A stretch of DNA of 64,000 bases. Source: Loxodes magnus. Taxonomy: Eukaryota; Ciliophora; Karyorelictea; Loxodida; Loxodidae. Below are positions 3,090-58,770 of the stretch, one piece after another. The stretch is from contig CAMPDV010000723.1 of NCBI GenBank assembly GCA_946699065.1, forward strand, positions 124,001 to 188,000, read 5' to 3'. The notes beneath the pieces are model-generated. The model was given only the letters and a program-made list of their open reading frames with translations. It was not told where the DNA came from and ran no database searches. Each line of letters starts with the position of its first letter. Position 1 is the first letter of the stretch. The position numbers and the translations under genes are program-made.

Positions 3090-5030
3090 CGTCCAAATTC
3101 ATATTTATTTTGTGGTTCTTATTGCATTTGTAGAAGTTGCTATTTTTTTCTTAAAATAATTTTTATTGTTATTGTTAAGTTTATTGATCTCTCTCAATTT
3201 TCGTGTTCTACTCATTATTTAAAATCTATAATTCATTTTTTGATATTTTTCTTCCGTTTATTTTGTTCTGGCTTCTTTTTTTTATTATTTTTGATTTAGA
3301 TAAAGATTTTTTTAATCTATCCTGAACTTCAAATTGCTTCTTATATATTATCTAGTGATTTTTAGGTCTTTTCCTGCTTTTTCGTGTTATTCTGTTTTTC
3401 TGGTAAAATTTTATCTATATTAACATTCAATTATGCTTTAATTTTTTCTTATGTTTGTCGTTCTTTTTCTCTTTTATTTTTCAATTTTTTTTTTTAATCA
3501 ACGATTTTATTTTGATTAAAGGAACACTATTTTAATTCTTTGGTGATAAATCTTACCCTTCTTCTTTTTTCCCCAACAAGTATTTTTGCCTTTTACATTT
3601 TTTAAATCTAGTTTAAGAAGTTAAACTTTTGTGATTTTCTTCTTTAAAATGGTTTTATTGTTATTTACTTTTCAGGCTAGAAATTTCCATCTTTTTATTC
3701 CTTCTCCATCGGTTCAGGTAAATTTGACTGTCTGGCATCATTTCTTTCAGGACTTAAAGAAATGCTTATTTTAGCTGCGAAAATATTTTCTGCTTTTTCA
3801 TCTGAATTTATTAGGCTAGAGTTATTAATTCTTTCTTTAGCAACTAACTTTATATTTGTTACTAGTTTTGGTGGATTTTATTAATTTTTACTTTTCAGAA
3901 ACTAAAACTTATGTTGAGACTTTGTGTTCTCCTAAGATGATTAATCTAATTTTGGATTATTAGTCTCTTCTGCTAAATTTCCTTATTCCTAAAGAGTTTG
4001 TTCCAACTTCTACTCAAATTCTTTTGTTGATTCATACACGACTTTTTCTTTTTCTTTTTCTTTTTCTCTTTTTCTTTTTTTTGCTTTGCTATTTTATTTA
4101 AGTTCTAGAACCATTATCCAGTTTGAAAAAGCGTTTAAAATAGATTGATAAACTTCTATCTGGTTTGTTATAATTACTCCTACAACTCATTAAAAAACTG
4201 CGTGGCCTCATCAGTTTATTCTCCTTTTAACTCTTTGTGTTAAATTAGCATATCTTTTATTTATGTTTTTTTATTATAAATTTAATTTGTCTTCAAAATG
4301 TTTCTAACCTTCAACCTTTTAATAAAGCCTATCTAAAATCTCTATGTCTTTTCTTTTGCTTCATGTATGGCCAGTAAATTTTTTGAAAATTGTATTTCCT
4401 TCAATTTCTCTATATCATTTTTGCACGATGATTTATAAACCAGTTTAAGAACTTGGCATTTTCTTTACTTCTTCTCTTAATAAAGCGTCAAAAAGCTGCT
4501 TGCATTTGATTAGATGCTAAGGAATCTTTTATTTTTTTGGTTATAGTTCTAGTTACTTACTATTCTATAACTGTTTGAGGTAATTATTACTTCTACATTT
4601 CACTTTTAGTTGCCTTTAAATTGATTCTTGTCTTTGCTAAACTTTTTTATCTTCAATAGAAATTTAGTTTTCTTCTTTTTTTCCTGTATTTGACTCTGCT
4701 TCTATAAATTTATTTCTTTAGTTTCTTATACTTATGAAATATTTTGCAATTAATCTTAACTTAAAACTTTTTACATATACGAGCTTGTCTCTTCAATAAA
4801 AAGTTCCGTATTTCTGCCGTTAAAAGTTTCATTTGGTTATTGATTTTCCTCAATTTTCTGATTTTATTCCTAGTCGATAATTGTAATAAAATCCTTAAAA
4901 GTGCTATCATAGTGCTTATTTTCCTCCTATGACTATTATAAGAGTTTCGATCCATCACATACTGAATCTGCTTCAAATTGATCTTACTTTACAGTTTCAT
5001 TTTAATAAATACTTACTTCAAAAAATCTCT
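3090..5030 (-). CDS. Lys/Glu/Gln-rich charged protein, unrecognised
   Basis: Read on the minus strand with TAA/TAG as Gln and TGA as Trp, this gives one sustained protein-like frame from about 4680 down to about 3100: Q/E/K-rich, coiled-coil-like, with more ordinary patches such as K-C-K-Q-L-F-D-A-L-L-R-E-E-V and V-V-G-V-I-I-T-N-Q-I-E-V-Y-Q. A (CTTTTT)n tract at 4042-4080 reads as alternating Lys-Glu. Upstream of 4680 the frame continues acidic and Gln-rich (D-S-T-F-K-D-F-I-T-I-I-D), but in a different frame, joined across a run of seven A's, so there is an indel, a sequencing error or an intron there. Start and stop cannot be fixed: no clean ATG opens the frame, and composition drifts to non-coding near 3090. 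No family is recognised. It lies tail-to-tail with WD40 relic C. Confidence 0.55.
4042..4080 (-). repeat. (CTTTTT)n tract coding Lys-Glu repeats
   Basis: About five CTTTTT units on the plus strand, slightly interrupted. In the minus-strand frame of the surrounding gene they read as alternating AAA/GAA codons, giving a K-E run. The period of six keeps the frame, which supports the coding reading. Confidence 0.7.
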
Positions 5031-5159
5031 TTGCTTCTTTTCTTTCCAATATTCAGGAGATTTTAATTGAGAGTTCTTTATCTAATTTTTCTTTTCTATT
5101 AAAATAGTAAAAATTAAAACAAAAAGTATAAAATAAGCAATTACTAATTATAACTCAAT

Positions 5160-8470: not shown

Positions 8471-10957
8471 ATGGAATTTGGCTTCGATTAAGATTTCATA
8501 ATTTAACGAGAGGATTTAGAAATAGGAGAGCTAATTGCAAGTGGAGGTTTTGGAACTGTGTATAAAGGAATATGGTTAGATACCAATGAAGTTGCCATAA
8601 AATAGTTATTTATATAGAATTCGACTATAGATATCAATCAAGAATTCTAAAAAGAGTTGACAGTATTAAAGAAGTTCCGTAATCCTAATGTTATAATGTT
8701 GTATGGTTATTGTCCTTAACCTCTGAGTTTAGTGATGGAATTGATGGTTCAATCTTTATTTTAGTTCCTGCATAATAATAATGAGATACCATGGTTACTA
8801 AGATATTAAATCAGTTTGAATATAGTATCTGGATTATAGTACATACACATGTAGGAAATAATTCACCGTGATTTAAAAAGCAGCAACATTTTATTGGATA
8901 GGAATAACGTGGCTAAGATAACTGATTTGGGATTGGCAAAGATAAAGACCTAATCAAAGTCATTTAATACAAGCTCAAATATGAAGGTTGGCACGATATG
9001 TTGGATGGCGCCTGAGTTGTTATTGAGAAAGCCTCAATATAGTAAAAAATCAGACATTTATTCATTGGGAATGGTGTTTTGGGAGATAGCTTCGTAGAAG
9101 ATTCCTTTTGAGGAAACGCATGAGATAGGCATAATATAGTTGTTAATGAGTGGAGAGAGAGAGGAAATGCCGGTTGATTGTCCTGAGTAATATGCTTAGA
9201 TAATAAGTGGATGTTGGGCTTAGGAGGTTTAGAATAGACTCGAAATCAACTAGATCAAAAAGATGTTAAAGGAGTGTATCAAAAATTAGAATTAGATTGA
9301 TTAATAATCTTAGTCTAATTTTCAGCAATCTTAAAGTTCGATATAAAATACACTATAGTAGTAGTCAACTAGGTAATAAGCTCAGATGATTGTGCCTTAA
9401 TAATAAATAGAAGAAATATAAACGTAATAATTAGCAAATATCTCAATATTAACCTTTGAAAATTTGTTATAGTTTTTGAATCAGATAAAAGGAGAGAATG
9501 TAAATTTAGTAATGTTAAAGTGAGGTCCTTTAAATCAAACTAGATTTGTTGATTAAGTTTAAATTCTGCTGCAATTACCATAAGTGACAGATTTTAAAAT
9601 TCATGTAAAGTTGATTTAGATATTGCAGTTATGTAAATCATAAAAAGGAGTAGCACAAATTGCTTCCAATGCCTTAACAATGCTAAACTATATGAATTTT
9701 AATTTCACTTAATAAAACTTATCAAACATCGACTTAATTAACTCTGATCTCTCTGACACAACCTTCACCTCCTGCAACTTCTCCAAATCCAACTTAACTA
9801 CTGTCAACCTCTGTAACACCAAATTTATTAACTGCGACCTCTCCAACACCAATCTCACTTCTATCTCTTCTGAATATCCACACATATTCACTGGACACAT
9901 AAACTCAGTCACATCCGTGGCCATCTCTTCAAACAATAATTTAATAGTTTCTGGATCATTTGACACTACTCTAAGACTCTACAATATAGCCTAAGGTACC
10001 TGTAAGACCATGAGTGGTCACACAGGTTATGTATATGCTGTGGCTATATCCAGTTATTCAGAGTTCATCATATCGGGAAGTGGAGATAAGACGGTGAGAC
10101 TATGGGACGTCAAAACAGGTACCTGTAAGACCATGAGTGGTCACAAAAGTTATGTATATTCTGTGGCTATATCCAGTGATTCAGAGTTCATTGTATCTGG
10201 AAGTAGAGATAAGACGGTGAGACTATGGGACGTCAAGACAGGTACCTGTAAGACCATGAGTGGTCACACTAGTTATGTATATTCTGTGGCTATATCTTGT
10301 GATTCAGAGTTCATCGTATCGGGAAGTTATGATAATACGGTGAGACTATGGGACGTCAAGACAGGTACCTGTAAGACCATGAGTGATCACACTAGTTATG
10401 TATATTCTGTGGCTATATCCAGTAATTCAAAGTTCATCATATCTGGATCGTATGACGAAACTATTCGTTTATGGAACTCATGAACATAATAATGCATAAG
10501 AATCTTTTCGGGACATACCTCTTATATCTTATCGGTAATATTCTCAAACAATAACAAGTATATTTTATCTGGATCACATGATAAGACTATAAGAATCTGA
10601 AACGTCTCTACTGGATAGTGTATCTGTACACTTTTGGGTCATACAGACAGTGTCGGTAGTTTATCATTATCTAAAGACAACAATTGGTTGGTATCAAGTA
10701 ATGGATGTAATTGAATTTTCTATAACTAATCAAGTGATTACAACATTCGAAGATGGAATATAGGAAGAATATTGAATGGAGAATAAGCAACTAACTAATA
10801 ATAGGTAAGTTCAAATATACAATTAATTATATAGACTGACTGGAATAGAATATATGCTGACTATGGATTAAGATTCTAGAAATGTACTCTGAAAGGTGTC
10901 ATTATGAGTGGAGAGGATAAAAAAAAATATGACAAATCTGGCTGTGTAATTTTCTGA
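8471..10957 (+). CDS. Protein kinase - pentapeptide repeat - WD40 fusion protein
   Basis: An 828-codon frame from ATG 8471 to TGA 10955, unbroken if TAA/TAG are Gln and TGA is Trp. Kinase domain, residues about 14-270: glycine loop G-G-F-G-T-V (25-30), V-A-I-K with Lys44, alpha-C Glu62, catalytic H-R-D-L-K-S-S-N (132-139), D-L-G (152-154, a DFG variant), W-M-A-P-E. All key residues are present, so it should be an active Ser/Thr or dual-specificity kinase of tyrosine-kinase-like type. A Gln-rich linker follows (about 275-330), then an A-S-N-A-L-T-M-L segment and pentapeptide repeats (about 416-466; N-L-S-N-I-D-L-type units). A seven-blade WD40 propeller runs from about 473 to 790. TGA codes Trp at 9521, 10481, 10598 (the conserved R-I-W-N position) and 10712. 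Blades 2-4 are almost identical in DNA. The protein probably acts as a cytosolic signalling receptor, with the propeller sensing and the kinase responding; this is inferred. The stop choice is inferred because the frame stays open beyond it. Confidence 0.92.
9990..10483 (+). repeat. Tandem 126-bp WD40 blade repeats
   Basis: The block beginning GGTACCTGTAAGACCATGAG recurs at 9994, 10120, 10246 and 10372, a spacing of 126 bases or 42 codons, exactly one WD40 blade. The units are nearly identical at the DNA level. Differences are mainly at the residues after G-H and at the residue before the structural Asp in S-G-S-x-D. This indicates recent amplification or gene conversion inside the gene. Confidence 0.9.
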
Positions 10958-15210: not shown

Positions 15211-15609
15211 AATAGGTCAGAAGCTGATTACTAAGGCTTTAACAAAGCTTTTTACCTTTTAACTTTTTTGAACTTACCAATAAATTTAATTTTACGTAAA
15301 AATCTTTATGTTTAACCTTTTAATTTTACACGAGAAATTACTAATCTTTACTTCAAAGAGTTCCTGTTAGTTTTTAGTCTTTTGAATTTTTTATTTTTTT
15401 ATGTTCTATTATGAAAGATAAGCACTATGAAGAAATTAATCTATTATGGTATCATTACGCTGAAAAGATAATCTCCCTTCAAGTATTTTCATATTATAAA
15501 CTCACTAATTTTAGCATTTTGTAGGTATATAAACAATATAAGCAAATGCTTTTAAATTATATATAGAATTAAAGATATTTTGGTGAGCTTAGATTGCCGT
15601 TAAAATAAA

Positions 15610-17012
15610 ATGGAAGAAAGCATGCAAAATAAGAAGGATAAATAATTATAAAAAAACGTTTAAGAATATGAATGGAGCAATCCTTAACAAGAGGATAAAG
15701 TAGAGTAGTAGGAAGAATAACAATGTCCATGTGAAATTTTTACCTAAATTGGAAAAGATTAATTCGTAGTTTATGGTGATGGAGGAAGTGGAAATTTGAA
15801 ATATCCACTTTTTTTTTCGGAATAACTACCTGTAACTATAAAAGTCAAGGAAGAATTAGAGTAGGAATTAGAGCAGTTAGGATAAAAACTTAATGATTGA
15901 CATGAAGATAAACCTGTCTTAGATATCATAGACCCCGATCTCAATCCTAACTACTTCATTGCTCCTCTGCTTAAAAACCAATAAAAGACTTAGTAGACTG
16001 AAAGATAGCTTAAATGTGAATATAGTGAGCTTAATAACGAGCGATCAAAGTATGCATGGCTTCCAGTAGATGTTTGAATAGACGAAAAAGAATAAGTAAA
16101 GATTGGAGGAGAAATAAGAAACTTAGATATTCAAAAAAATGTCACTCTCTATAATCACTTATTTACTGTTTTCAAAGCCATGATTCCTGCTTTTAAGAAG
16201 TTGGATATTGTAAAAGAAAATTAACTGAATAAATTATAAGTGGTAGTAAAGGCATAGAAATATGTAATTGCTCCTGAATCATGGTATTCAGGAAAATGAC
16301 ATGTAGAAGGAAAGACAGAAAATATAGTAGCTGCAGGAGTTTACTACGTAAAAATAGAAAATTTCCTGTCGATAAAGTAGGACCAGATCCCGGTTATGCT
16401 AAGAGCATTAATATATAGATGTCAAAAACAGTAGATGTTAAAGAAGGATCCGCAATTGTATTTTCTAATGAATTGCCTCACAAATTTCTAAGTCTAGAAA
16501 ACTATACAAATGAGCCCCTGTCAAGGCTTTTTATAAACTTTTTTATAGTAGATCCCGAAAAACCTTTAGAAAGTACTTCATTTTACACTTAAGCAAGAAA
16601 AATTCTTTTAAAAAAGATAAACAGAAACATGGTAGGAGTAATTTTGTCTTTTATCGTTTCTAATTTACCAATGGAAGAAGCGAAAAGGAAAAGATTGTTA
16701 TCAAGAGAATGCATGATGAATGATAAAAGTTAATGGGGATTTATCCATTATGGAAATAGTGGAGATGTTTAATATGTTGATGCTTGCACTAATAAAAATC
16801 TGTTAGATTGCTTTGATAGTTTCAGTGAAAATCCCATACCTATTTAAAAAATACGCCAATAATTATTTAAGCTATTTTGCACTATCTTCTAATAATCTAC
16901 AACTCTCTTTATCACTTAAGCAATAATCTTATTTAATTACAAAAAGAGAATCACTACACCGTATTTAAATTTTATATACTCTCAGATTAGGCATTATTCC
17001 TCTTAATAATGA
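15610..17012 (+). CDS. DUF4246 family protein, one apparent frameshift
   Basis: From ATG 15610 the frame gives W-L-P-V-D-V-W (typical 'WLP' start of the core), L-Y-N-H-L-F-T-V-F, then Y-V-I-A-P-E-S-W-Y-S-G-K-W-H-V-E-G and I-V-A-A-G-V-Y-Y. These match DUF4246, a fungal/eukaryotic family with a putative Fe(II)/2-oxoglutarate oxygenase-like fold. The conserved Trp before H-V-E-G is encoded by TGA (16297), strong evidence for TGA as Trp. The second half continues V-G-P-D-P-G-Y, then A-I-V-F-S-N-E-L-P-H and F-F-I-V-D-P, which are also family motifs (second metal His), but in another frame, shifted near 16370. No intron with plausible borders restores the frame by eye, so the gene is a recent pseudogene, has an assembly indel, or uses frameshifting. 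The end is placed at the first in-frame TGA (17010); TAA at about 16846 is an alternative nearer the family's usual end. Confidence 0.8.
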
Positions 17013-17890: not shown

Positions 17891-18439
17891 TTTATTATTT
17901 ATTTACTAGATTGATATAACTAAACTTTATATCTTAATTCCATATAATTTATTTGCTACATTTTAGAAGTGACAATTAATAGATATATAAAAGCTTATAT
18001 TTCAAAGTAACTTAGTATAATAATATTGTAAGCTATAATATAAAAAATAATAATGGGAAGATGTATTTATATTAATTATTATTAAAAGGTTTGAATGAAA
18101 AACTAGAAAAATTTTAAAATTTAAAGAAAAGAGTATTAAAAGCTTGGGTATTTTAATTAGAAAGAAATTAGATTATACTGAAATTATTCTATATTGGTCA
18201 TTTTTAAATTTTCATATTCTAAATTTTTTTACATTAAACAATATGTTAAAATAACAATCGATGAAGAAGTCTACTGTTCTTTAGATTTTTATTCAAGTCT
18301 AAAAAGTAAAGATATTTTATTATACTTTAATTTATTAATTTGAGCAATAAACTAAATTTTTATTATTATTACTCTTTAAAAAATATTTTGAGAATTTAAC
18401 CTTGAATTATATAGAAAATTAATTTATTTTAATTTTAAT
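17891..18439. other. A+T-rich spacer
   Basis: Nothing recognised. Confidence 0.45.
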
Positions 18440-18459
18440 TTTAAACTAAATGAGTTTTT

Positions 18460-21400
18460 GTACATCTATAACTGCAAGAATTGCTTCCTTCAATTATAGA
18501 TATTAGTAAATGTTGTTAATGTTTTTTAATTATATTCTTGATCTCATCAATTTATAATTACTCTTGTTATAATATCATCTTTTTTTCTTTCTTTTTTGCT
18601 TTTTCCATTTCTAATAATTCTAGTCTTCTTGAAACAAGTTTCTTGCGAAATATTTTTATTTATAAATCTAAATATACAATAAGACTTCGGAAAGGAGTTT
18701 ATAAATCCTTAATCTTATAATATAGTCAATCTCTTATATTAGAATAGTATATACATTTAAAAATGTGCTCGAATGTATCATAATCTCCACACATACAGTA
18801 GGGATTATCAATAAGATAGTGACGATCTTAAAGATCTTTTGGAAAATTATAGGATTTGGTTCTAAGTTTATATATACTGATAATTTCTTGTCTAAATTAT
18901 TTGCTCAACTTAGTATAAGTAATTAGCGGAAATTGGTTATGATTACTAAACTACTCAGTATATATTTTAGCTATTTTTCATTCTCTTAAATTTTTGAGTA
19001 GCTGTATTATAGAAATATTTTTGTATTTTGTCTCCTATATGTTTAGTTCAGGTTTTTTAATTAGTATTAATCTTGGAATTCTACAGGTTGATACTATAGA
19101 GGTCTGATAGTTGCTAAACTTGATCATAGTATTGAAACCCTTTTTTCCAGTTGGTATCGAAAAGAGAGCCTATTGTCGATGTTGGAAAATCAATGCTTTC
19201 TTAATTCATTTTATATTATAATTAAAAAACTTTATTGCCATAATGTACTTAAAAAGTAGCAAGTTTAAATCTATATAGCATGATTTTTAAAAGCTGAAAT
19301 TGCTGCTTAAAATGCTTTTTTGGAATCATTTTCATGTTTGACTCAATTCTATTCAAAACTCCAGTTATTCCTTTTTGAATACACCATGGTACTAGTTTTC
19401 CTCCATATTCTGCTTTAGGTAGCATAAAATGTCTCATAAGTTTTAAAATGTCAAGGAGTTACATTCTTATATCTCATAGTTAAAAAACAGCTTTCTTCAT
19501 TGCAGCTTTATATTTGAACGCGACTTCTCAACAATGAGGATTAAAATTCTTCTTCTTATGTAGAATTACACCTAAATATGTTACTTGATCTTTTTAAATA
19601 ATTGGTTCACTTTCTAATCATAAATTTAAGTTTTATTATCCCCAATTTCTCTTTAAAATTTATATGCATTCAGATTTTATAACATTGATCTTTAAGTGAG
19701 TTTATGCAAAAATCTTACTTGTTTCATTTATTAACTCCTACATCTACTTTGCAGATTTGGAAAGAAGAATAAGATCATCTAACCATCCTCTACAAGCGAA
19801 GCTAATACTTGAATCCTGGCATTTAAATCCCAATTAGTTACTTTTACTTTCCAGATATCTAATTACTATGTCATAATATAATAATGCTAAAACTGGTCCA
19901 TGAGAACTTCCTTACATAACTCCATTGTTAAATTATAAAGTTCTGGTGCTCTTTCCATCTATGATAAATGAAGAATTTAGGTTTTTATAAAACGATTCTA
20001 AGGCTATTATTATTCCAAGTGGTAGTTTAACTCTCTTAAGTTAATCAAACAAGAGTCTTCTTTCTATTGAGTCAAACATTTTTTCAACGTCTATCAGTGT
20101 TGCTATCAATTTAGTCTTACCTTTAGCACATTTCCGATAGTTATCAATTATTTGTTATATTATTCAAATTTATTAAGTTGTTTATCTCTTTTTCATAAAT
20201 CCCATTTATGAAGGGTGAATCAAATTTCTCTAATAAATCAGATTGTATAGTCTTTTTGTTAAAGCTTTATCATATAGTTTTAGAATAGTATTAATAAGAG
20301 AAATAGGTCGTCAGTTTCCAATCATCTTTATTTCCTTTTTTAAATATTGGAATTATCACCGATAAATTTAATTCCTAAGGGATTCTTCCAAGTCTTAGCA
20401 TATTATTCAGAAAAGAATGAAGAATTATTAATAAATATTATCCACCATATTTCAGAAGTTCACCTTTTATTCAAGCTGAAAAAGCTGCTTTTCCATTCAT
20501 AATTTCTTTTATAATTTTTTGTATTTCTTGTATGGTAAAAAGATAAAATCCTTACAAATACGAGAGTGGATAATCTTTAATTTCTTAAATATTATCGTAT
20601 ATTTTATCTATTTTTTAATTACTAAGATTTATCTATTATTGAGTTAGATTAGAATGCTTGTTAAAAACACAATTTTCCCATGATTCAATGAATTTATTTT
20701 TGATTTCTTAACTAAAGTTCATAGTATTTCTCTTCAAAGGGTTTAGAATTTTCTTAGCTTGTGAAAAATTTCCTTAGAATCTCCATTAAGAAATAGAAAT
20801 TTCTTTTTTGCTTTGTTTTTTTTAATTTTCGTAGATTATACTTGAAGTCTTTCCAAAGTCGTTTTGCTACCTCATGAAGATTAATTACTTGCTAGTTTAT
20901 TCTTCCAAATTTTATGTGAGCTTCCTTATATTCTGAGTTAGCTCTTTTTGCCTCTATATATTTCTTTGTGCGAGCTCGAGGAAGTTTGTTATAATTTGAG
21001 TCTGGAATAAACGAACCTAATGTTTGATCAGCATTGTCTTAAATACTACTTTTGATGCATTCATATTAATCTTCAAGATTATCTTAATCTATTTAAAAGA
21101 ATTCTAGATAAGTTTGTAGGAAAGATTCTTAATATTTTTGCCTATCTATTGCATCTTATAACCTATTTATTTTATATTTTCACTGAGTTATCTTTTCCCA
21201 ATATACTATAGAATTATTGATAAAGTCGACAGTGATTGGAATATGATCAGAAAATAAACTATTATTATGAGCAGTGAAATTTGCAAACTAATTAACGTTC
21301 AAATGGTTGTTTATAATGATATAATCATTACAATACGTTTTTCCTGTTCCTTTGTGAATACATGTATTAATGTTGCTATCATTCACTATCTCAAGATCGT

Positions 21401-21883
21401 TTTATAGTAAGAATTCTTATAATATAATGTTATTATCATAAGCATTTTCAGGATTATCACCGAAGCCTTATAAAAGAGCATTGAAATCTCCCATTAGTAT
21501 ATGTGGATTATCATTATATAAATTCAGCAATGTATTTAGTTGCTCATAAGCTAAATCTTTAACATCTTAACTTTTTCCATTATCAGGCATGTAACGAGAC
21601 GTGATTAAAGTATTATCCAGTTTAATTGTTATGAATCGATTTTTTTTTTTTCAACTTATATATGTATTTCTGTACTATTAAATTCTTCTCCTACAATTAA
21701 GCATACACCTCCTCCTTTTCCTGAGTTCTTAAAATATGTTTTAAATCCATTTATCAATATTGGAGGAAAGTCATCTTTTTATCAGGTTTCGTTTATTGAT
21801 AAAATATCTATACTGTTATCTCTGATAAATTCTTCAATATTCAAGCACTTGCTCGCTATTCCATTAATATTTATATGTCCCAT
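18460..21883 (-). CDS. LINE 1 ORF2: AP-endonuclease and reverse transcriptase
   Basis: ATG 21883 opens M-G-H-I-N-I-N-G-I-A. Endonuclease motifs: I-N-E-T-W near 21790, its Trp encoded by TGA, and G-D-F-N-A near 21480. Reverse transcriptase: P-I-S-L-I-N-T near 20300, I-D-V-E-K-M-F-D-S-I near 20085, N-G-V-M-Q-G-S-S-H-G-P near 19915, catalytic L-D-D-L-I-L-L near 19775, and V-T-Y-L-G-V near 19590. The C-terminus has C-M-C-G-D-Y-D-T-F-E-H-I-F-K-C near 18770, a zinc-binding motif of many LINEs. About 1,140 codons, usual for the class. Relative to the plus-strand copy, two bases are missing just before the P-I-S-L-I motif, shifting the frame. The protein nicks target DNA and copies the element RNA. 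Confidence 0.8.
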
Positions 21884-27900: not shown

Positions 27901-29500
27901 ATATTCTTAAATCTTTTAATTAATAAATTTAAATTTAAGCTTTAAAACTCTTATCTTGTAGGTTTAATTTTTTTCTCACTTTCATTATGTTTATTTAAAT
28001 ACTTTCTTATTACTACTAAAGACTGTATTCTTTTTAAATTTTATGACTAAAGTCAACTAGACTAGGATTTATTGTGGCTTTAATTTTAGTTTTAAATAAC
28101 TTATATTAGCTAATCTAATACTTATATTATCTAATACTACAAAGAAACATATTATGTTAAGTTTACTCTTTCTATTAATTCAGAAAATAATAATAGAAGA
28201 TATTAAAAATATGCTTTCTTAAAAAAAGCTTATAATTTTCTTAGTAACAAACAACTTATTTTAATAAAGAGAGTATTAATAGTGATAACTATGTTTTTTG
28301 GATAAGAATAGAATAATAGAATTAAGTTTTTATCTTTAAATAATCTAGAATAATTTAGGTATTATTAATTAGAAATGATAATTACAAAAATAACATAAAT
28401 AATAGATATAATATTAGTTTGCTATAAAAGAGAAAGTTATCTAAATGTATTAATTATAACTAATCTAATATCTAAATTAAAGAGAAATTAAATTAATAAC
28501 TAATAAAGCTAAAAGGATAAAATATTAAGTATTTAATAGACATAATTAAACATATTAAAGCTTATTTTAATAATAAAATTAAATATTACTATTTAATAAT
28601 TGTAAGATAAAATTAGTGATACACCATTTATAGCTAGTTTAAATATTTACTTTCTACTACTTATATTTATTACATTTATATATTTTGCTTAGAATCAACA
28701 TTATAATAAATTATATTAGTTTATTATTTTAAAAGAGACCTTTATAAATAAAAAGTTTTAATTAAATAGTAGTAAGAAAGTGGCCAATTAAAAGAGTTTA
28801 TCTTATAAATTCCAAAAATACTTTTTTTTTAATAATTTTATGTTTTTTAATATATATTCAAACTAATTAATAAGAAACTCAATTTTATTTACTTTTTTTA
28901 ATTAGTAAAAAGTTTAAAGAAATAATTTTTTGATTAAATGTAAGTGAAAAGTAATAATTAATAACAGTAGATTTAAAGAATTGTAATATTTTATTTATCA
29001 TATAAAAGGGTCTATAAAGAAATAAGGTTTTTTTATTAAGAGTCTTTGATTTAAAGCACAAATAAGTAGTAACTAATAAATGCATATTAAAGTTATTATA
29101 ATAAGGATATAAATTCTTCATTATAAACTTTTGATATAATAAATTATCCTTTCATTTAAAAGTAAAAAGATATAAAATAATTAAAATTATAAAAGTTTGT
29201 ACACTATTAGTTTTATATCTTGTCTCGTCTTAAGACAAAAATAGAAAAATCAATGTTTAATAAGATATTTATAAGTATGCTTAATAAATAATTTAATTGT
29301 TTAATTGTATTGAAATTAAGTAAGTAAAATTAATTGAGTTATTTTAATTAAATAGTTATTGAATTAAGTTATAAAAACTAAAATGGAGAAAAAACAAACG
29401 GAGAAAAAAGAAAAGCAATTTACTAAAATTTTTTTTTAAAGAAAACTCCTAAGAGCGAGAAGCCACATTCTAGGGAAAATATCTCTACTTCATTTTAAGT

Positions 29501-30469
29501 ATGAAATTCTGCCTAACTTATGCTACTAAAAGTTAATAAACAAGATCAGTTATGACCAAAGTAAAGGTATTTCTTTAATATTTTTTAGACTAAGTCCTCA
29601 CTGGTCACTCTTCACCTGTTTTATCGGTAGCCATATCAAGTGATATGAATTGAATTGTATCAGGTTCAGAATATCCTGAATATTCGATAAAGATCTGGAA
29701 TTTCCAGACAGGTGCTCTCATAAGAACTATAACAGGACATACTTCCTCAGTTAGATCGGTAGTAATTTCCCCAGACTCTAGCTATATAGTATCAGGATAT
29801 GGTGATTCAACCATCAAGATCTGAAACTTATAGACTGGTTCTCTCATAAGAACTATAACGGGACATACTGGTTCAATTTAAATGGTAGTAATCTCCTGTG
29901 ACTCTAACTATATCGTATCAGGATCTGAAGACACTACTATAAAGATCTGAAATTTCCACAATGGTGATCTCCAAAGAACTTTAACGGGACATACTTTTTT
30001 CGTTAACTCGGTAGTACTCTCCTATGACTCAAGATATATTATATCGGGATCTTCTGATAAAACTATAAAGATTTGGGATTTCTAGACTGGTCAGCTTGTG
30101 CGAACTCTTACTGGGCATTCAGGTTATGTTTCATCGGTGATAGTGTCTAAGGATAATAGGTATATAATATCAGGTTCTGGTGACAGTACTATTAAGATAT
30201 GGGACTTCTCTTCTGGTTAGTTTATTCGTACTCTTTAAGGTCATACAGGTGTTGTACGTAGTATTCAGTTAAGTGTTGATTCAAGTGTTATCTTTTCTGG
30301 TTCATGGGATGAAACAATCAAGATCTGGAACTTTGATAAGGGTGAGTGTATATAGACTTTATAAGGGCATACAGGATGAATATGGTCTATAGCATTGAGT
30401 GTTGATAATAGATGGTTGGTATCGGGAGGATGGGACAATACTGTGAGAAAGTGGAGAGTTTCGAGTTGA
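29501..30469 (+). CDS. Seven-blade WD40 protein A
   Basis: 322 codons from ATG 29501 to TGA 30467, with in-frame TAA/TAG as Gln and TGA as Trp (29822 and 29948 at the conserved I-K-I-W-N position). A 35-residue leader ([10 protein letters not shown]) is followed by seven 42-residue blades of the type L-T-G-H-T-x-x-V-x-S-V, S-G-S-x-D-x-T-I-K-I-W-N-F, closing with V-R-K-W-R-V-S-S. Seven blades make one complete beta-propeller, a protein-binding scaffold. No other domain is seen, so its partner is unknown. Gene B has exactly the same length. The leader contains a 22-base stretch, GT...AG (29569-29590), that looks like a tiny ciliate intron, but removing it would break the frame from this ATG. 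Either it is translated, or the true start differs and the leader is untranslated. The TGA stop is inferred from the end of blade 7. Confidence 0.88.
29569..29590 (+). other. Intron-like GT...AG stretch in leader of gene A
   Basis: A 22-base T-rich segment beginning GTATTTC and ending TTTTTTAG, of the size and look of ciliate micro-introns. Gene B has a 22-base counterpart at 51073-51094 and relic C a 19-base one near 2618. From acceptor AG to the first G-H codons A and C are the same length, which supports a real acceptor. Splicing would put the M-K-F-C start out of frame. Confidence 0.35.
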
Positions 30470-31070
30470 GTAACTTATGATTTGACTTAATTAAATTTTA
30501 CGATTAAAGATATAAGATATTGGTAATGTATTTAAATGAATGTTTAATGCTAATAATGTTTTTAGTTTTATGAAGTTTTTTTTTATTAATTAAAAATTTG
30601 TTATATTGTTAAATATTATTAGTTTAAAAATAGGGTTGAGTGATAGGTTATAGAAATTAGTGAGGTATGTTGATTTAAAGTGGTAATGTTTAAAAATATT
30701 TAAAATATAATTTTGTTAAATGAAAGCATGAAATAAGTTAAAGTTTAAATTTATGCTATAAAATTTTATGGATTTATTTTTAGATTTAGTAAAAATTTCA
30801 AGTTGAGTATAAATTTTCATTTTTTTTGTGAAGTGGTTAAAATATTATTTATAAGGTTAAAGTAAGTTTATAATTTTGATTATTAATTAAAAAATTTAAT
30901 TAAGTATTTATTTTAAATTAAATTAAATTAAATTAAATTTTGTTTTTTTATTATTTATTTTTTATGATTGATTATTATTATTTATTAATTATTATTAATT
31001 ATTATTATTATTAATTATTAATTATTTATTGTTATTATAAAATTTTAATATTTAAGTTTAATATTTTTTG
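30470..31070 (+). other. C-depleted 3' flank of gene A
   Basis: The plus strand is nearly without C: none between 30551 and 30726, while G is regular. The copy B counterpart (51974-52540) shows the same bias. It includes an (AAATT)n tract at 30915-30939 and an ATT-rich tract near 30970-31040. It may be a long transcribed 3' region or reflect strand-biased mutation. Confidence 0.6.
30915..30939. repeat. (AAATT)n microsatellite
   Basis: Five AAATT units in a row, also present in copy B at about 52418-52443. Confidence 0.8.
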
Positions 31071-31845
31071 TTTCCGATTTGGAAAAAATTTTTTGATATT
31101 AAGTTTTTTATTTATCATTATTTTTCGATTTTAGAGTTTAAATTTCATGAAAATAAAAAATTTGTTTTTTTATCCAGCGTTTTACACTACCAAAGATATC
31201 TGGGACGGAATAAATTTAATTATTTCGGGATAAAAATTTTAAAATAGGAATAAATTTTTTTATTTCGGGATAAAAAATTCTAAATAGGAATAAAAATTTT
31301 GAAAGTAATTTTAATAAAAGTTTTTAAAATTTCTTAGAAAAGCGGTTCTAAAATAATTTCGAAAATAATTATCTAAAATCGTTTTTGAAATTAAATTTGG
31401 AAATTAATTTTACAAATCTTTAAATTTTTTTTAAGGAATTTTTTTTAAAACTTTTTTTGATAAATATTTCTGGGACGGGATACATTTTTTTAATATGTAA
31501 AAAAGGTTTTTTTTTTAAATAGACTTAAAACTAAAAAAATTTTGAATTTTGGGATGGTAATTTAATTTTTTAAGTTATATGTTAATAAATTTATTTAAAT
31601 TTGTTTATTCTTGTGTTTAAGTTCAATAATAAATTTTTATTTTAATATGTTTCGTTTTCGATTGGAAAATAAAATTTTTTGATATTAAGTTGTTTATTTA
31701 TCATTATCTTTCAATTTTAGAGCTTAAATTTCATGAAAATAAAAAATTTGTTTTTTTGCTCAGCGTTTTACGCTGCCAAAGATTTTCGGCACGGAATAAA
31801 TTTAATTATTTCGGGATAAAAATTTTAAAATAGGAATAAAATTTC
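31069..31845 (+). repeat. Direct repeats carrying CAGCG inverted-repeat motif
   Basis: Two units of about 190 bases, 31069-31260 and 31650-31845, are about 90% alike by eye and lie some 580 bases apart. Each holds the motif CAGCGTTTTAC (31175 and 31761) followed by a GGGACGGAATAAA or GGCACGGAATAAA block. The second is a perfect inverted repeat, CAGCG-TTTTA-CGCTG. A third, degenerate unit with TGAGTTATACGCT lies at 32261. Copy B lacks the motif-bearing parts of both full units. Confidence 0.75.
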
Positions 31846-32299
31846 AAGAAAAAATTCCAAATATAAAAGATTTTTGAGAAAAAATAGGAATTAAAAAAAT
31901 TTTATATTAAAATAGAATTTGGAAATTTTTTTTGTAGAAATGGTTTTTTGTAAAAATTAAAAATAAATTTTGTTTTTAAGAAAATTTATTGTAAAATTTT
32001 CAACAAAACTTTTTTCTTTTTTATTTAAAAGTATATTTTTGATAAGGTTAATTATGTTTGAAATTATAAAAAAAATTTATTGTTTATGCTTTGGAAAAAA
32101 TACAATTTTTAATTTTGAACATCTTTTCTAGTAAATGAAAAAATTTGTTTTAAAAATTTTTAATATAATAAGAATTTACTTAAATGAAAACGATCTCAAG
32201 AAAAAAGGAGATATAATAAAATAACCATGAAATCGTGAAAAAATTATCCTTTTTTCGCTCTGAGTTATACGCTACAAAAGAATTTCGGGTGGATAAATC

Positions 32300-33940
32300 C
32301 TTTTCTTAAAGGATAGAATTTTAAAAGATTTGAAAAGTTTTTTAAATGACTTTTAAGAAGTAAAGATAAAAAAATAAATTACAATTTTTGAAGAAACAAA
32401 ATCAGTAAAATTTGTTTTTTATAAGAGGGCTTAAAACTATTTTTTTAATAGATATTGTAAATTTTAAAAAATAACTAATCTAAAAAGAGCTAAAAAATCT
32501 CTTTATAAAAATATGATCAATCAAATAAAAAAAATGAGGTAAATACATCTGTAATAATAAATTTTATGCCAATTTACAAAGAATCTAAAAAAAGGAATTA
32601 AACAAGGATCTAAATAATATATCTAACCTAACTATATAAAATAAAGAAACAAAAATTTATTAATCAAGTTTAAAAATATTCTGCTTTATTATAATAATTA
32701 TAAAAATATTAAAAATTTAAGATTAGTAAAAGAGTTTTGAAAAGAGCTTACTACGACTAACTATCTGTTTTTAGTTTGCGAAAAGATGTTAATTTAGAAG
32801 AGGAAAACAAGTTTTTTAAGAAAAATTGCTATATTAAGTATTTTTTCTCTTTAAAATTTTTCTCATTCTGTAATATTAAAAGAAAAGCTTTAAAGATAAG
32901 CTTTCTGATTTTAAGCAACTTGAATATATCTATTATGTATATAGAAAATCGATTTTATTTATTAATCTTAAAATTTGAATTTCTAATGAAGCTATTTTAT
33001 TAAAGTTGAAAGCTTTTTAAAAAATAGATTAATTATTTATCATATAAAAGCATTTGCTAGTAAACTATATAAATAATTTGAATATATGCAAAATTATAAA
33101 AATCTTCACTTTCTTGTAAATTATCTTATATTCCATCTAAAATAAGAATAAAATTATATTCTAATATTAAATAATAAGAATTACCAAAATGAAAGTGTAA
33201 ATAATTAAGAAATCAATATAGTTTTGATTATATCAAAAAAGGTTAAAAGCTTTAATCTTTTGTATAATTAAAATAATATACAAAGTGTAAGTTAATAACT
33301 ATTATAATTATATCTATAAAAAATGGGAAATATTTCGTACAATATAAAAAGAAACATATATAGCATAATAAAAAGCAAAGTTTCTACTAAGCCGATAATG
33401 CTAATAGTACACAATTTCATAAAGAACCTTAATAATGAGCTAGTTTTATTCTAAATTATTAGACAACTAAATTATAATTTATAATTTAAGCATTCCTTTA
33501 ATAAATGCTTGCTTTAATATATAATTTAGTATTTTTTAATTTAAAATACTAAATATTCATAAACATAATAATATTTAAAGTGCTTTATTTAAAATAAATA
33601 AAAAAAAGCAACTAATTTAAATTTAAAAGATCTTATCAAGAAATTAAATTAAAATGTTTTAATATTCATTTTCTAACTAAATAGTCATTGATTATTGTTC
33701 ATTTATCTATTTGATTGATATTTTAAAGATTGTAATTATATTTATTCATAAAGTATGATATCAACTGAAAATTGCTAGATTATTTAAAGATAAAAACTTA
33801 ATTATTAAAACAATTCTTTTATAAAATAAACAGTGATAAGATGATATTATAGCTTAAAAAGATAATTTTTTCCTGCAAATTGATTTATAAAACAAAACTT
33901 AATTTATATGAGATTAATTGAAGATGTGCAAGAATTTGAG
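32300..33940. other. Distal part of copy A, no gene seen
   Basis: Highly similar to 53130-54768 of copy B, but short standard-code frames here (for example 32776-33003) are broken by indels in copy B, so they are not conserved genes. Confidence 0.55.
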
Positions 33941-49586: not shown

Positions 49587-51004
49587 TTAGTTTTAAATAA
49601 CTTATATTAGCTAATCTAATACTTATATTATCTCATGCTTATTACAAAGAAACATATTATGTTAAGTTTACTCTTTCTATTAATTCAGAAAATAATAATA
49701 GAAGATATTAAAAATATGTTTTCTTATAAGCTTATAATTTTCTTAAGAGCAAACAACTAATTTTAAGAAAGAGAGTATTAATAGTGGTAACAATATAATA
49801 TAGATTTGTATATAATAATAGAATTAAGTTTTTATCTTTAAATAATCTAGAATAATTTAGGTATTATTAATTAGAAATGATAATTACAAAAATAACATAA
49901 ATAATAAATATAATATTAGTTTGCTATAAAAGAGAAAGTTATCTAAATGTATTAATTATAACTAATCTAATATCTAAATTAAAGAGAAATTAATTAATAA
50001 CTAATAAAGCTAAAAGGATAAAATATTAAGTATTTAATAGACATAATTAAACATATTAAAGCTTATTTTAATAATAAAATTAAATATTACTATTTAATAA
50101 TTGTAAGATAAAATTAGTGATACACCATTTATAGCTAGTTTAAATATTTACTTTCTACTACTTCTATTTATTACATTTATATATTTTGCTTAGAATCAAC
50201 ATTAAAATAAATTATATTAGTTTATTATTATAAGAGAGACTTTTATAAATAAAAAGTTTTAATTAAATAGTAGTAAGAAAGTGGGCAATTAAAAGAGTTT
50301 ATCTTATATATTCTAAAAATGCTTTGTTTTAAATAATTTTATGTTTTTTAATATTTATTCAAACTAATTAATAAGAAACTTATTTTATTTCATTTTTTTA
50401 ATTAGTAAAAAGATTAAAGAAATAATTTTTTTTGATTAAATGTAAGTGAAAAATAATAATTAATAACAGTAGATTTAAAAGAATTGTAATATTTTATTTA
50501 TCATTTAAAAGGGTCTATAAAGAAATAAGGTTTTCTTATTAAGAGTCTTTGATTTAAAGCACAAATAAGTAATAATTAATAAATGCATATTAAAGTTATT
50601 ATAATAGGGATATAAATTCTTCGTTATAAACTTTTGAAATAATAACTTATCCTTTTATTTAAAAGTAAAAAGAATATAAAATAATTAAAATTATAAAAGT
50701 TTATACACTATTAGTTTAATATCTTGTCTTCTTTTAAGACAAAAATAGAAAAATCAATGTTTTAGAAGATATTTATAAGTATGCTTAATAAATAATTTAA
50801 TTGTTTAATTTTATTGAAATTAAGTAAGTAAAATTTATTGAGTTATTTTAATTAAATATTTATTGAAGTAAGTTATAAAAATTAAAATGGAGAGAAAATA
50901 AATGGAGAAAAAAGAAAAGCAATTTACTAAAATTATTTTTTTAAGAAAACTCTTAAGAGCGAGAAGCCACATCCTAGGGAAAATATCTCTACTTCATTTT
51001 AAGT

Positions 51005-51973
51005 ATGAAATTCTGCCTAACTTATGCTACTAAAAGTTAATAAATAAGATCAGTTATGACCAAAGTAAAGGTATTTCTTTAATATTTTATAGATTAAATC
51101 CTTAATAGTTACACTTCACGTGTTTAGTCGGTAGCCATATCAAGTGACCTGAATTGAATTGTATCAGGTTTACGAAGTCCTGAAAATTCTATAAAGATCT
51201 GGAATTTCCAGACAGGTACTCTCATAAGAACTATAACAGGACATACTTCCTCAGTTAACTCGGTAGTAATATCCTCAGACTCTAGCTATATAGTATCAGG
51301 ATCTGATGATAAAACCATAAAGATCTGAAACTTATAGACTGGTGCTCTTCAAAGAACTATAACGGGTCATACTTCATATGTTACATCGGTAGTAATTTCC
51401 CCTGACTATAGATATATAGTATCAGGATCTTATGACAATACCATAAAGATTTGAAATTTCCACAATGGAACTCTCTAAAGGACTTTGTCTGAGCATACTA
51501 ATACAGTTATATCGGTAGTAATCTCCTATGACTCTAGATATATTATATCGGGATCTTGGGATAAAACTATAAAGATTTGGAATTTCTAGACAGGTCAGCT
51601 TGTGCGAACTCATACTGGGCATTCAGGTTCTGTTTTATCGGTGATAGTGTCTAAGGATATCAGGTATATAATATCAGGCTCGGATGACAGTACTATTAAG
51701 ATATGGGACTTCTTTTCTGGTTAGTTTATTCGTACTCTTTAAGGTCATGTAGATGGTGTATCAAGTATTAAGTTAAGTGTTGATTCAAGTGTTATATTTT
51801 CTGGATCTTACGATGAAACAATCAAGATCTGGAACTTTGATAAGGGTGAGTGTATATAGACTTTGTAAGGACATACAAGTTTAATATAATCTATAGCATT
51901 GAGTGTTGGTAATAGATGGTTGGTATCGGGAGGATATGACGAGACGATAAGAAAGTGGAGAGTTTCGAGTTGA
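51005..51973 (+). CDS. Seven-blade WD40 protein B
   Basis: 322 codons from ATG 51005 to TGA 51971, colinear with gene A without any indel. Seven 42-residue blades form one propeller; TGA encodes the conserved Trp at 51326 and 51452, and TAA/TAG encode Gln (for example in Q-T-G and L-Q-G-H). Against gene A the framework residues are almost unchanged, but each blade differs at the two or three residues after G-H and around S-G-S-x-D-x-T: blade 7 has T-S-L-I-Q-S for T-G-W-I-W-S and G-Y-D-E-T for G-W-D-N-T. Blade 1 is degenerate (N-S-Y-T-S in place of T-G-H-S-S). Some differences replace whole codons, suggesting conversion between blades. The partner is unknown. The same 22-base intron-like stretch lies in the leader at 51073-51094. 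Confidence 0.88.
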
Positions 51974-54768
51974 GTAACTTACTATTTGACTTAATTTAAT
52001 TTTACGATTAAAGATATAAGATATTGGTAATGCATTTAAATGAATGTTTAATGTTAATAATGTTTTTAGTTATATGAAGTTTTTTAATTATTAATTAAAA
52101 ATTCGTTATATTCTTAAATATTATTAGTTTAAAAAAAAGGTTAAGTGATAGGTTATAGAAATTAGTGAGGTATGTTGATTTAAAGTGGTAATGTTTAAAA
52201 ATATTTAAAATATAATTTTGTTAAATGAAAGCATGAAATAAGTTAAAGTTTAAATTTATGCTATAAAATTTTATGGATTTATTTTTAGATTTTGTAAAAA
52301 TTTCAAGTTGAGTATAAATTTTCATTTTTTTGTGAAGTGGTTAAAATATTATTTATAAGGTTAAAGTAAGTTTATAATTTTGATTATAATTTAAAAAATT
52401 TAATTAAGTATTTATTTTAAATTAAATTAAATTAAATTAAATTTTGTTTTTTTATGATTATTATTATTATTTATTATTTAATATTAATTATTAATTATTT
52501 ATTGATATTATAAAATTTTAATAATTAAGTTTAATATTTTTCGTTTCCGATTGGATTATAAAATTTTTTGATATTAAGTATTTTATTTATCATTAATTTT
52601 CGATTTTAGAGTTTAAATTTCATGAAAACAAAAAATTTGTTTTTTAATATGTAAAAAAGGGTTTTTTTTTTAAATAGACTTAAAACTAAAAAAATTTTGA
52701 ATTTTGGGATGCTAATTTAATTTTTTAAGTTATATGTTAATAAATTTATTTAAATTTGTTTATTCTTGTATTTAAGTTCAATAATAAATTTTTATTTTTA
52801 TTTTAATATGTTTCGTTTCCGATTGGATTATAAAATTTCTTGAAAAATTTTCATTTAAACTTTTTTTCTTTTTTATTTAAAAGTATATTTTTGATAAGGT
52901 TAATTATGTTTGAAATTATAAAAAACATTTATTGTTTATGCTTTGGAAAAAATACAATTTTTAATTTTGAACATCTTTTCTAGTAAATGAAAAAATTTGT
53001 TTTAAAAATTTTTAATATTATAAGAATTTACTTAAATGAAAAGGATCTCAAGAAAAAAGGAGATATAATAAAATAACCATGAAATCGTGAAAAAATTATC
53101 CTTTTTTTGCTACAAAAGATTTTCGGGATGGATAAATCCTTTTCTTAAAGGGATAGAATTTTAAAAGATTTGAAAAGTTTTTTAAATAACTTTTAAGAAG
53201 TAAAGATAAAAAAATAAATTACAATTTTAGGAAGAAATAAATTAGTTAAAAAAATTTTCTATAAGAGGGCTTAAAACTACCTTTTTAATAGATATTGCGA
53301 ATTTTAAAAATAACTAATCTAAAAAGAGCTAAAAAATCTCTTTATAAAAATATGATCAATCAAGTAGAAAAAATGAGGTATAATGCATCTGTAATAATAA
53401 ATTTTAGGCCAATTTACAAAGAATCTAAAAAAAGGGATTAAACAAGGATCTAAATAATGTATCTAACCTAACTATATAAAATATAGAAACAAAAATTTAT
53501 TAATCAAGTTTAAAAATATTCTGCTTTATTATAATAATTATAAAAATATTAAAAATTTAAGATTAGTAAAAGAGTTTTGAAAAGAGCTTACTACGACTAA
53601 CTATCTGTTTTTAGTTTGCGAAAAAATGTTAATTTAGAAGAGGAAAACAAGTTTTTAAGAAAAATTGCTATATTAAGTATTTTTTCTCTTTAAAATTTTT
53701 CTCATTCTGTAATATTAAAAGAAAAGCTTTAAAGATAAACTTTCTGATTTTAAGCAACTTGAATATATCTACTATGTATATAGAAAATCGATTTTATTTA
53801 TTAATCTTAAAATTTGAATTTCTAATGAAGCTATTTTATTAAAGTTGAAAGCTTTTTAAAAAATAGATTGATTATTTATCATATAAAAACATTTGCTAGT
53901 AAACTATATAAATAATTTGAATATATGGAAAATTATAAAAATCTTCACTTTCTTGTAAATTATCTTATATTCCATCTAAAATAAGAATAAAATTATATTC
54001 TAATATTAAATAATAAGAATTAGCAAAATGAAAGTGTAAATAATTAAGAAATCAATATAGTTTTGATTATATCAAAAAAGGTTAAAAGCTTTAATTTTTT
54101 GTATAATTAAAATAATATACAAAGTGTAAGTTAATAACTATTATAATTATATCTATAAAAAATGGGAAATATTTCGTACAATATAAAAAGAAACATATAT
54201 AGCATAATAAAAAGCAAAGTTTCTACTAAGCCGATAATGGTAATAGTACACAATTTCATAAAGAACCTTAATAATGAGCTAGTTTGATTCTAAATGATTA
54301 GACAACTAAATTATAATTGATAATTTAAGGATTCCTTTAATAAATGTTTGGTTTAATATACAATATAGTAATTTTTAATTTAAAATACTAAATATTCATA
54401 AATATAATAATATTTAAAGTGCTTTATTTAAAATAAATAAAAAAAAGCAACTAATTTAAATTTAAAAGATCTTATCAAGAAATTAAATTAAAATGTTTTA
54501 ATATTCATTTTCTAATTAAAAATAGTTATTATTTTTTGTTCATTGATCTATTTTATTTATGATTAAAGATTGTAATTAATGTTTTCATAATGTCTGAAAA
54601 ATTGTTAGATTATTTAAAGATAAAAAATTAACTCTTAAAATCAATCCTTTTATAAGATAAACAGAAATAAGAGGAATTATAATTAAAAAAATTCTAACAA
54701 ACAAATTTATAAGACAAAAAAATTAATTTTATAAGAGATCAATTGAAGATGTGCAAGAATTTGAGAGC
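51974..54768. other. 3' part of copy B, no gene seen
   Basis: C-poor flank, (AAATT)n tract near 52418-52443, and A+T-rich sequence matching 30470-33940. No further gene is recognised. Confidence 0.55.
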
Positions 54769-56853: not shown

Positions 56854-58770
56854 ATGGATTAGTAAAATTATAAAAGTCCTAAAAAATAATTTGGTTCTTA
56901 GAAAAGAATTCCTAAGATACTTCAATATAGTTGCTTAATGTGTTCAAAGTGCATTAAAATTGGCCTTATGTCGCTCAATAAATATTTTGTAAAACACATT
57001 AGTAAATATTTAAAGGCTAAATATCTGAGTTAAAAGACTAGATTTCAACTGAAAATTTGAGAAGAAACTAATGAGTTTCAATAAAAAGCAAAACTAAATG
57101 AAAATTTATAGAATTATTTGCAAATATTAAAATAATAAAAGATATAGTAAATTAACTTCATTAAAGTTATATTGATGATCTAAAAACTTTTTTCTAATAT
57201 CATCAATTAAGTATGTACTTAAAACCACAAATAATATTATAGGGCAATTATAAAATAATATAAGAAAAATCGAAGAAATAATTTAAAATTTAGAAAAAAC
57301 ATTACATTTACCATCATAAACTAGATAGTAACAAGAAGAAATAGTAGCCTTATTACATATAATTAAATATCAATACAAACAGATAAAGTTAATGATTTAG
57401 AAATATAACTAAGTTAAAAATGAAGAAGTAAATGTTAATTAAATTTCAGATCAGTTAATTAAAATTATTTTATCGTTATGAATTTTATTGAGGAAAAGTG
57501 CAGAATTAAAATCCAATAAAATTATAATATTGCAGATATAATAAATGAATATTTTAAATAATAAATTAAATATTATTTTACACTATTAACAGTAGAGAAT
57601 GTTGCTAAATTATTAGAAAAATTTTAAAATAAAGTTTTGAAAAATGCTAATTTGTAAGAAAAGCCTTTAAATTTTTCTAACATATGTAATAATTAAAATT
57701 TTTGATTAAATTAAAACAGTTATCAAGTTAAGGTTTGATAAAAAAAATTGAATGATGTCATAGAATTATCTAAGGCTGATATCAAAGTAGAATAAGCTTC
57801 TGCAAATGCGATAGCAATCTTAAAATGTTTTAACTATAATTTTATATAAAAAAGATTTGAGGGAATAAGAATCTAAGGTGCTAATTGAATGAATCAAATT
57901 TTCAAGATTGTAATCTAAGAAACTCAAATTTATAAGAGATCAATCTAAGGAATGGGAAACTAACCAAATGCAACTTAAATGGAGGAAATTTAAATAATAT
58001 GTAATTGAAATTGCCCTAATCTTTTGATACTTTGCTGAAACATATGAATTGAATTTATTCGATAGCGGTCACGAGTGACTAGAAATAATCATATCAGGAA
58101 GTAATGATTCGACTATAAAGATTTGGGATTTTCTGAGTGATTTCTATAAGAGTACTTCGACCGAACGAGCGAATGAAGCTGTAAAGAGGGACTAGAAATA
58201 AATAGTTTCGGGAAGTTATGCTAGTACAATATAAGTATGAGAATTTTTGAATGTGACCTTAAAAAGTACTTTGATGGGACACACGAATTATGCTAGATCA
58301 ATAATGGTAACAAATGAATCGTTTCGGAAAGTTCTGATTAAACTATAAAAATATGAAATTTTTCAACTGGTTAATGTATTCGAATTCTCTAAGGATATCA
58401 AGATTCGATAAGAACAATAGAATTTAATCATAAAAAAACTCATAATATTTGGAGGTTATGACAAAACAATCAAAATATGAAACTTTCCAACAAAAAAAAG
58501 CATACGAACTTTAGAAGGCCATACAAATTTAGTGAGAATATTACTAATAACAACTATCAATAAGTTTATAATATCTTGATAATATGACATATTGTAAAAA
58601 TATGGAATTTCTAAACAGATGAGAGGTTAATATTATTACGAGGATATTAGGGAGAAATTTACGAATTAATGCTGACTGGAGATATAAAAGGAGTAATATC
58701 AGGAGGATATGAGAAATAGATAAGGAAGTGAAATATTCAAAATTATTACAAGATCTTAAAGATGGTTAAG
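56854..58770 (+). pseudogene. Decayed pentapeptide-WD40 gene (locus D)
   Basis: ATG 56854 opens M-D-Q-Q-N-Y-K-S-P-K-K-Q-F and a Cys/His patch (C-L-M-C-S-K-C, later K-H-I-S-K-Y) that may be a remnant of a B-box-like zinc finger, followed by coiled-coil-like sequence. Near 57730-57880: K-K-L-N-D-V-I-E-L-S-K, A-S-A-N-A-I-A-I-L, F-E-G-I-R-I-Q-G-A-N-W, matching the conserved linker and first pentapeptide unit that precede WD40 repeats in many NACHT/WD-type proteins. Then, in another frame, N-L-R-N-S-N-L-Q-E-I-N-L pentapeptides and M-N-W-I-Y-S-I-A-V-T-S-D-Q-K. WD40 remnants follow to about 58740 ([34 protein letters not shown]), spread over three frames with at least four shifts. A host pseudogene with architecture like the kinase fusion minus the kinase. 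Confidence 0.75.

Follow-up and report, generated by a model that had tools for sequence, protein, structure and literature searches.

How the codons TAA, TAG and TGA are read is the question raised by the 64,000-nucleotide stretch of DNA analysed here (the window; 22% GC, low gene density). At 8471-10957 on the forward strand it carries a frame joining a kinase, pentapeptide repeats and a WD40 propeller (gene K), and this single frame is open over 828 codons, followed by a final TGA (10955-10957), provided that TAA and TAG stand for Gln and TGA is a sense codon. Under this reading, its 55 TAR codons (32 TAA and 23 TAG) are all translated as Gln, and TGA occurs four times inside it, at 9524, 10481, 10598 and 10712. 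Pfam matches were found to PK_Tyr_Ser-Thr kinase (1.1e-56) and WD40 repeats (1.3e-72), with pentapeptide repeats between them (5.1e-10). Measured per 120 nt, the GC content climbs from 0.19 just before the frame to 0.31 where it begins, reaches 0.43 within the WD40 part and drops back to 0.19 past the end, which indicates that the frame corresponds to one gene. An earlier reading made from the sequence only had described this kinase fusion as open for 828 codons without an intron, and the same frame was recovered here, with no frameshift. The TGA at 9524, which is located outside any Pfam domain and was left out of single-site scoring, may be a Trp codon within the kinase-WD40 fusion or a stop separating two genes; around it the frame runs on, and the GC content is 0.21 before and 0.24 after it, with no further fall. 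The last blade of gene K has a 12-codon insertion (approximately 10694-10733) with a TCAAGT repeat at its flanks and TGA 10712 inside, which may have been inserted in frame or have some other origin; an intron was considered as its source, and inspection by eye found no frame-keeping GT..AG intron.

To determine which residue TGA stands for, it was set in turn to W, R, C, G, S, L, Q, Y, F and K in the translation of the same DNA, and the Pfam scores were compared. Trp gave the highest score of the ten residues in all four regions, each on its named family: the WD40 gene A on PF00400 (256.5, runner-up Y 252.3), the DUF4246 gene on PF14033 (66.3, runner-up F 61.7), the reverse transcriptase on PF00078 (RVT_1; 106.4, runner-up Y 105.1) and gene K on PF00400 (246.9, runner-up Y 245.4). 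Several larger propeller models, whose totals depend on how each aligns with the repeats, ranked another residue above Trp, namely PF24817 (L 273.3 vs. 225), PF25175 (L 268.4 vs. 248.6) and PF25172 (Y 285.9 vs. 281.2) in gene A, and PF25174 (Y 230.5 vs. 211), PF25391 (F 219.7 vs. 212.5) and PF25175 (C 221.5 vs. 213.9) in gene K, while PF25173 put Trp first in both genes. These scores support TGA as a second Trp codon, which is the best-fitting reading in the regions tested.

Single TGA sites were then scored on the Pfam profiles as the difference, in bits, between Trp and an unknown residue (X). Nine of 15 sites favoured Trp by at least 3 bits, five were within 0.6 bits, and one was against it. 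In gene A (29588-30469, forward strand, seven PF00400 blades), the differences were +3.0 at 29651, +6.6 at 29822, +6.7 at 29948 and 0.0 at 30377; in gene K, 0.0 at 10481, +6.5 at 10598 and -0.6 at 10712, also on PF00400. In the first part of the DUF4246 gene (15604-16392, forward strand, PF14033 3.6e-18), they were +3.2 at 15898, -1.7 at 16075 and +6.4 at 16297. The reverse transcriptases of two LINE copies gave +4.0 at 20313, 0.0 at 20166, +0.1 at 19620 and +3.2 at 35337, and the endonuclease site 21784 (reverse strand) gave +3.0 in a Pfam match below the cut-off (18.8 of 24.5 bits). Besides 9524, the 15 scored sites leave out the three internal TGAs of gene B, the duplicate of gene A, and 34809, all of which are copies of scored sites, and the LINE TGAs outside the profiles. 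The earlier reading had placed TGAs at invariant Trp sites, naming 10598, 16297, 34809 and the endonuclease position; all four sites exist (the last at 21784) and score +6.5, +6.4, +4.0 (by the sister site 20313) and +3.0, respectively, but the last two do not merit the word "invariant". More generally, the Trp enrichment opposite TGA that it had predicted was borne out at the nine sites, while 16075 disfavours Trp, the residue opposite 10481 is R or S, or is missing, in the PDB alignments shown, and some LINE TGAs face AAA or TAA.

The C-terminal part of the DUF4246 protein is encoded in a different frame at 16410-16580 on the forward strand. With the two parts joined, the score was 87.8 bits instead of 74.6, a gain that assigns both parts to the DUF4246 family, with no proof of an intron in it. 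The stretch between them, 16393-16418, is a candidate 26-nt GT..AG intron or a frameshift.

TGA also closes genes. Gene K, gene A and gene B (51092-51973, forward strand) end with TGA at 10955, 30467 (30467-30469) and 51971 (51971-51973), respectively, and the GC content of the 120 nt before and after the stop fell from 0.33 to 0.17 in K, from 0.40 to 0.15 in A and from 0.37 to 0.15 in B (in A and B measured from a point 6 nt past the first base of the final TGA). Within 20 codons of their ends the three genes have no TAA, TAG or TGA, and the internal TGA closest to the end lies 81, 30 and 173 codons from it in K, A and B, respectively. Thus, all three inferred ends are TGA and none is TAA or TAG, although only two of them are independent, as A and B are copies. 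In these genes, UGA carries both meanings, Trp inside and stop at the end. The claim that all three standard stop codons are sense codons therefore stood as far as the sense use of all three is concerned, but TGA is not solely a sense codon.

Considering these results, the window is very probably nuclear DNA, most likely that of a ciliate, with a homonymous code in which UAA and UAG would specify Gln and UGA would specify Trp within the coding sequence and stop at the gene end. Under this proposal, internal UGA would be read through by a tRNA-Trp(CCA) with a 4-bp stem, and termination would be set by the transcript ends. Such a tRNA was reported in Condylostoma, Blepharisma, Loxodes and others, and termination by transcript ends was described for context-dependent codes, in the published passages compared. 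The code found here, UGA as Trp or stop and UAR as Gln, agrees with NCBI table 27 (karyorelicts, e.g., Loxodes) and has already been published, and the remark of the sequence-only reading that only a few nuclear codes, such as those of karyorelicts and Condylostoma, behave in this way agrees with tables 27 and 28.

In the passages compared on Loxodes magnus, UGA is the sole stop and also Trp, the 3′ UTRs are short and AT-rich, and UGA and UAA are depleted near the gene end. The window resembles the table 27 species (L. magnus, Parduczia) in UAR as Gln, UGA as Trp inside and stop at the end, AT-rich DNA past the stop and, as far as the three genes K, A and B go, the absence of in-frame UGA and UAA from the final 20 codons. 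The Loxodes genome is described there as repeat-rich, with RVT_1 and Exo_endo_phos_2 copies in thousands, and the same two amplified retroelement families occur in the window. Loxodes introns have a mode of 17 bp and 93% of them are of 25 bp or less, compared with which the only candidate found here, the 26-nt stretch with its frameshift alternative, falls toward the upper extreme of the reported lengths; coding GC is 33.5% in Loxodes versus 0.21 to 0.43 per 120 nt in the gene blocks here. ARAGORN run with the bacterial code detected no tRNA gene in the 64-kb window, and neither an Rfam match nor a lineage marker was found in it. We infer that the source is a karyorelict or a similar, Loxodes-like ciliate using table 27.

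A Condylostoma-type code (table 28), in which the three codons are all sense and all stops, is unlikely but still has to be weighed. As described for Condylostoma magnum in the passages compared, every one of the 64 codons can encode an amino acid, UAR coding for Gln and UGA for Trp; these sense meanings equal those of table 27, so the internal codons fit both codes equally well. The two differ in the TAA and TAG gene ends expected under table 28, which are unseen among the three inferred ends (two independent), and in being rich in LINEs and poor in genes the DNA is like that of Loxodes as described in the passages compared.

It is improbable that the DNA uses the common ciliate code (table 6) and that its in-frame TGAs are nonsense mutations, mostly TGG to TGA, in decaying germline or duplicated copies. 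Table 6 shares UAR as Gln and UGA as stop with the code proposed here and differs from it in that UGA is also sense here. In an AT-rich genome a single transition turns TGG into TGA, and a random-nonsense model predicted that 2.9 to 5.1 of 15 TGAs would derive from TGG (AT bias 1 to 3.5); the probability of nine or more ranged from 4e-4 to 0.03 with the assumed AT bias, the strong bias giving the 5.1 expected sites and 0.03. Taken alone, the TGA enrichment at Trp sites is therefore moderate and too weak for a verdict. The LINE copies also fit decay. In L1 (18429-22327, reverse strand), the pieces of the endonuclease (Exo_endo_phos_2 2.3e-10) and of the reverse transcriptase (RVT_1 2.1e-30) are spread over several frames, with TGAs at 20313, 20166, 19620, 19530 and 19476 in the reverse transcriptase frame and at 21784 in the endonuclease. 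L2 (33942-36726, forward strand, RVT_1 1.8e-19), which is without the 5′ part found in L1 and is 85.9% identical to L1 across 18429-21179, has TGAs at 34809 and 35337, among others, in its reverse transcriptase. In the reverse transcriptase frame the two copies have three TGAs in common and one TGA/TGG pair (35337 is TGG in L1), one TGA is opposite AAA and two are opposite TAA; the changes at codon positions 1, 2 and 3 (43, 39 and 53) show a weak bias. Some LINE TGAs, at non-Trp sites, are thus products of decay, so that some TGAs of the window are not codons in use; the LINE TGAs were discounted as code evidence because both copies are frameshifted. A WD40 stretch at 57938-58921 (PF00400 3.3e-10) is likewise degenerate-looking and is probably a decayed relative of A and B. 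Gene K, by contrast, is open over its entire length without a frameshift, and the duplicated genes A and B argue most strongly against nonsense mutations.

Genes A and B lie inside a segmental duplication (28086-31173 and 49587-52648) of 91.7% identity. The internal TGAs of B (51155, 51326 and 51452) are common to A and B at identical sites, while the fourth TGA of A, 30377, is at a hypervariable site and is TTA in B. Over 888 nt (29588-30475 and its partner) the two genes differ by 116 substitutions and no indel, whereas the duplicated flanks have 193 substitutions and 26 indels in 3970 aligned positions, which would predict for the 888 nt 15.6 indels when scaled to the substitutions or 5.8 when scaled to the length. 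The pN/pS ratio was 0.37 at the framework codons, a sign of purifying selection, versus 2.1 at seven hypervariable positions. Because indels are absent and the framework is constrained, selection acted on the frame while it already contained the TGAs, unless later gene conversion spread the shared ones. A and B are thus working genes and not pseudogenes, and the table 6 rule that UGA is only a stop does not hold for these functional genes with internal TGAs. This selection test, which is new relative to the earlier reading and is the strongest evidence obtained, makes the sense use of TGA firm; together with the first rank of Trp in all four regions, it upholds the earlier claim that TGA is a second Trp codon.

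As regards TAA and TAG, Gln gave the best score of ten residues on the kinase profile (195.7 bits, followed by K 194.5 and E 194.1). Between A and B, TAR is opposite CAA once and opposite GAR never, and between L1 and L2 it is opposite CAA once and opposite GAA once. The assignment of TAA and TAG to Gln, as also proposed in the earlier reading from Gln-compatible sites, is supported by the small kinase margins (1.2 bits over K and 1.6 bits over E) and by the TAR/CAR exchange. A non-ciliate using UGA as Trp is a shade less probable still than the table 6 code. Candidates would be a dinoflagellate like Amoebophrya, where UAR is probably Gln, or a trypanosomatid like Blastocrithidia, where UAR is Glu; for both, UGA as Trp is reported in the passages compared (PMC12005148; PMC12153298). 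In favour of such a source, Glu is only 1.6 bits below Gln in the kinase; against it, the TAR exchanges include CAA in both pairs and GAA only in the LINE pair, and the low gene density, the 22% GC and the LINEs suit a karyorelict, although the passages compared give no GC values for the rival genomes.

Several further features of the window were recorded. The duplication that includes A and B has an apparently noncoding part, 28350-28649, which differs from its copy near 49850 by one substitution in 299 aligned bases; the coding part adjoining it is approximately 13% diverged between the copies. A second pair of duplicated segments, 31981-33940 and 52832-54765, is 93.4% identical. The region 1839-2633 shows approximately 72-73% identity to the DNA that immediately precedes the WD40 part in A and B and is probably a third, broken copy; a WD40 reading of this copy near 2400-2650 was rejected, as it lacked Pfam support in three forward frames. 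The motif CAGCGTTTTACACT occurs at 11542, 31175 and 31761 (one of the three with a mismatch), where no occurrence is expected by chance, and it is perhaps the end of a mobile element. On the reverse strand, 3317-5091 reads under code 27 as a frame of 591 codons for a charged product; several TGAs lie in it, and Pfam gave no match above the curated cut-off. Self-training on codon usage converged on the WD40 repeats, and an amino-acid composition score took its place. In viral contigs, five stretches fitted the kinase pattern, none of them a relative; no match to the reverse transcriptase pattern and none to one 30-base string from the window was found.

The manner in which A and B diverged is a less expected result than the code itself: in a probable ciliate, this WD40 pair diversifies in a HET-E-like way. 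Changed cells amounted to 30 of 49 at the seven listed positions and 26 of 237 elsewhere (Fisher 4e-13), the position numbers being those of the fungal HNWD proteins, as given in the literature compared, with their offset matched to the A/B data. A clustering permutation that used no position list gave no arrangement as clustered in 20,000 shuffles. The diversifying HNWD positions are reported as 10, 11, 12, 14, 30, 32 and 39, and in the passages compared from Paoletti (2007) the strongest codons, 7, 9, 25 and 27, flank the conserved residues 8 and 26. The differences between A and B concentrate at blade positions 5, 7, 23 and 25 (counted from the G of GH), so that A and B, like the fungal HET-D/HET-E proteins, diversify at position pairs flanking a conserved residue in each blade; the location of these positions on the binding face is taken from the fungal literature compared. 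Compared with the near-identical repeats of the fungal HNWD genes, A and B are mutually more divergent, and the source, on the present evidence, is no fungus. HNWD receptors have a NACHT domain and an N-terminal effector, whereas neither a NACHT nor a HET/effector domain was found by Pfam (E 0.05) in 29200-29620 or 9329-9890, nor was NACHT or HET among the best 25 of the 41 to 54 Pfam matches of K, A and B; A and B are therefore not classed as HNWD members. Among the open-access papers listed in the literature searches, none reported ciliate WD40 genes with HET-E-like diversification. By analogy with the fungal system, we tentatively suggest that a ciliate without a dedicated stop codon may carry a HET-E-like WD40 recognition family, in which the binding-face positions of the blades would diversify while the framework is kept, with UGA-Trp codons in the framework and at one binding-face site (30377).

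Codes in which all codons are sense make termination context-dependent, and this stretch adds material on the coexistence of UGA as Trp and UGA as stop. The selection test separates in-frame TGAs from pseudogene stops without transcripts. The A/B pair suggests that a fungal HET-like recognition system may exist in ciliates and, if the proposed family is real, it would represent a ciliate allorecognition or pathogen-sensing repertoire convergent on the fungal one.
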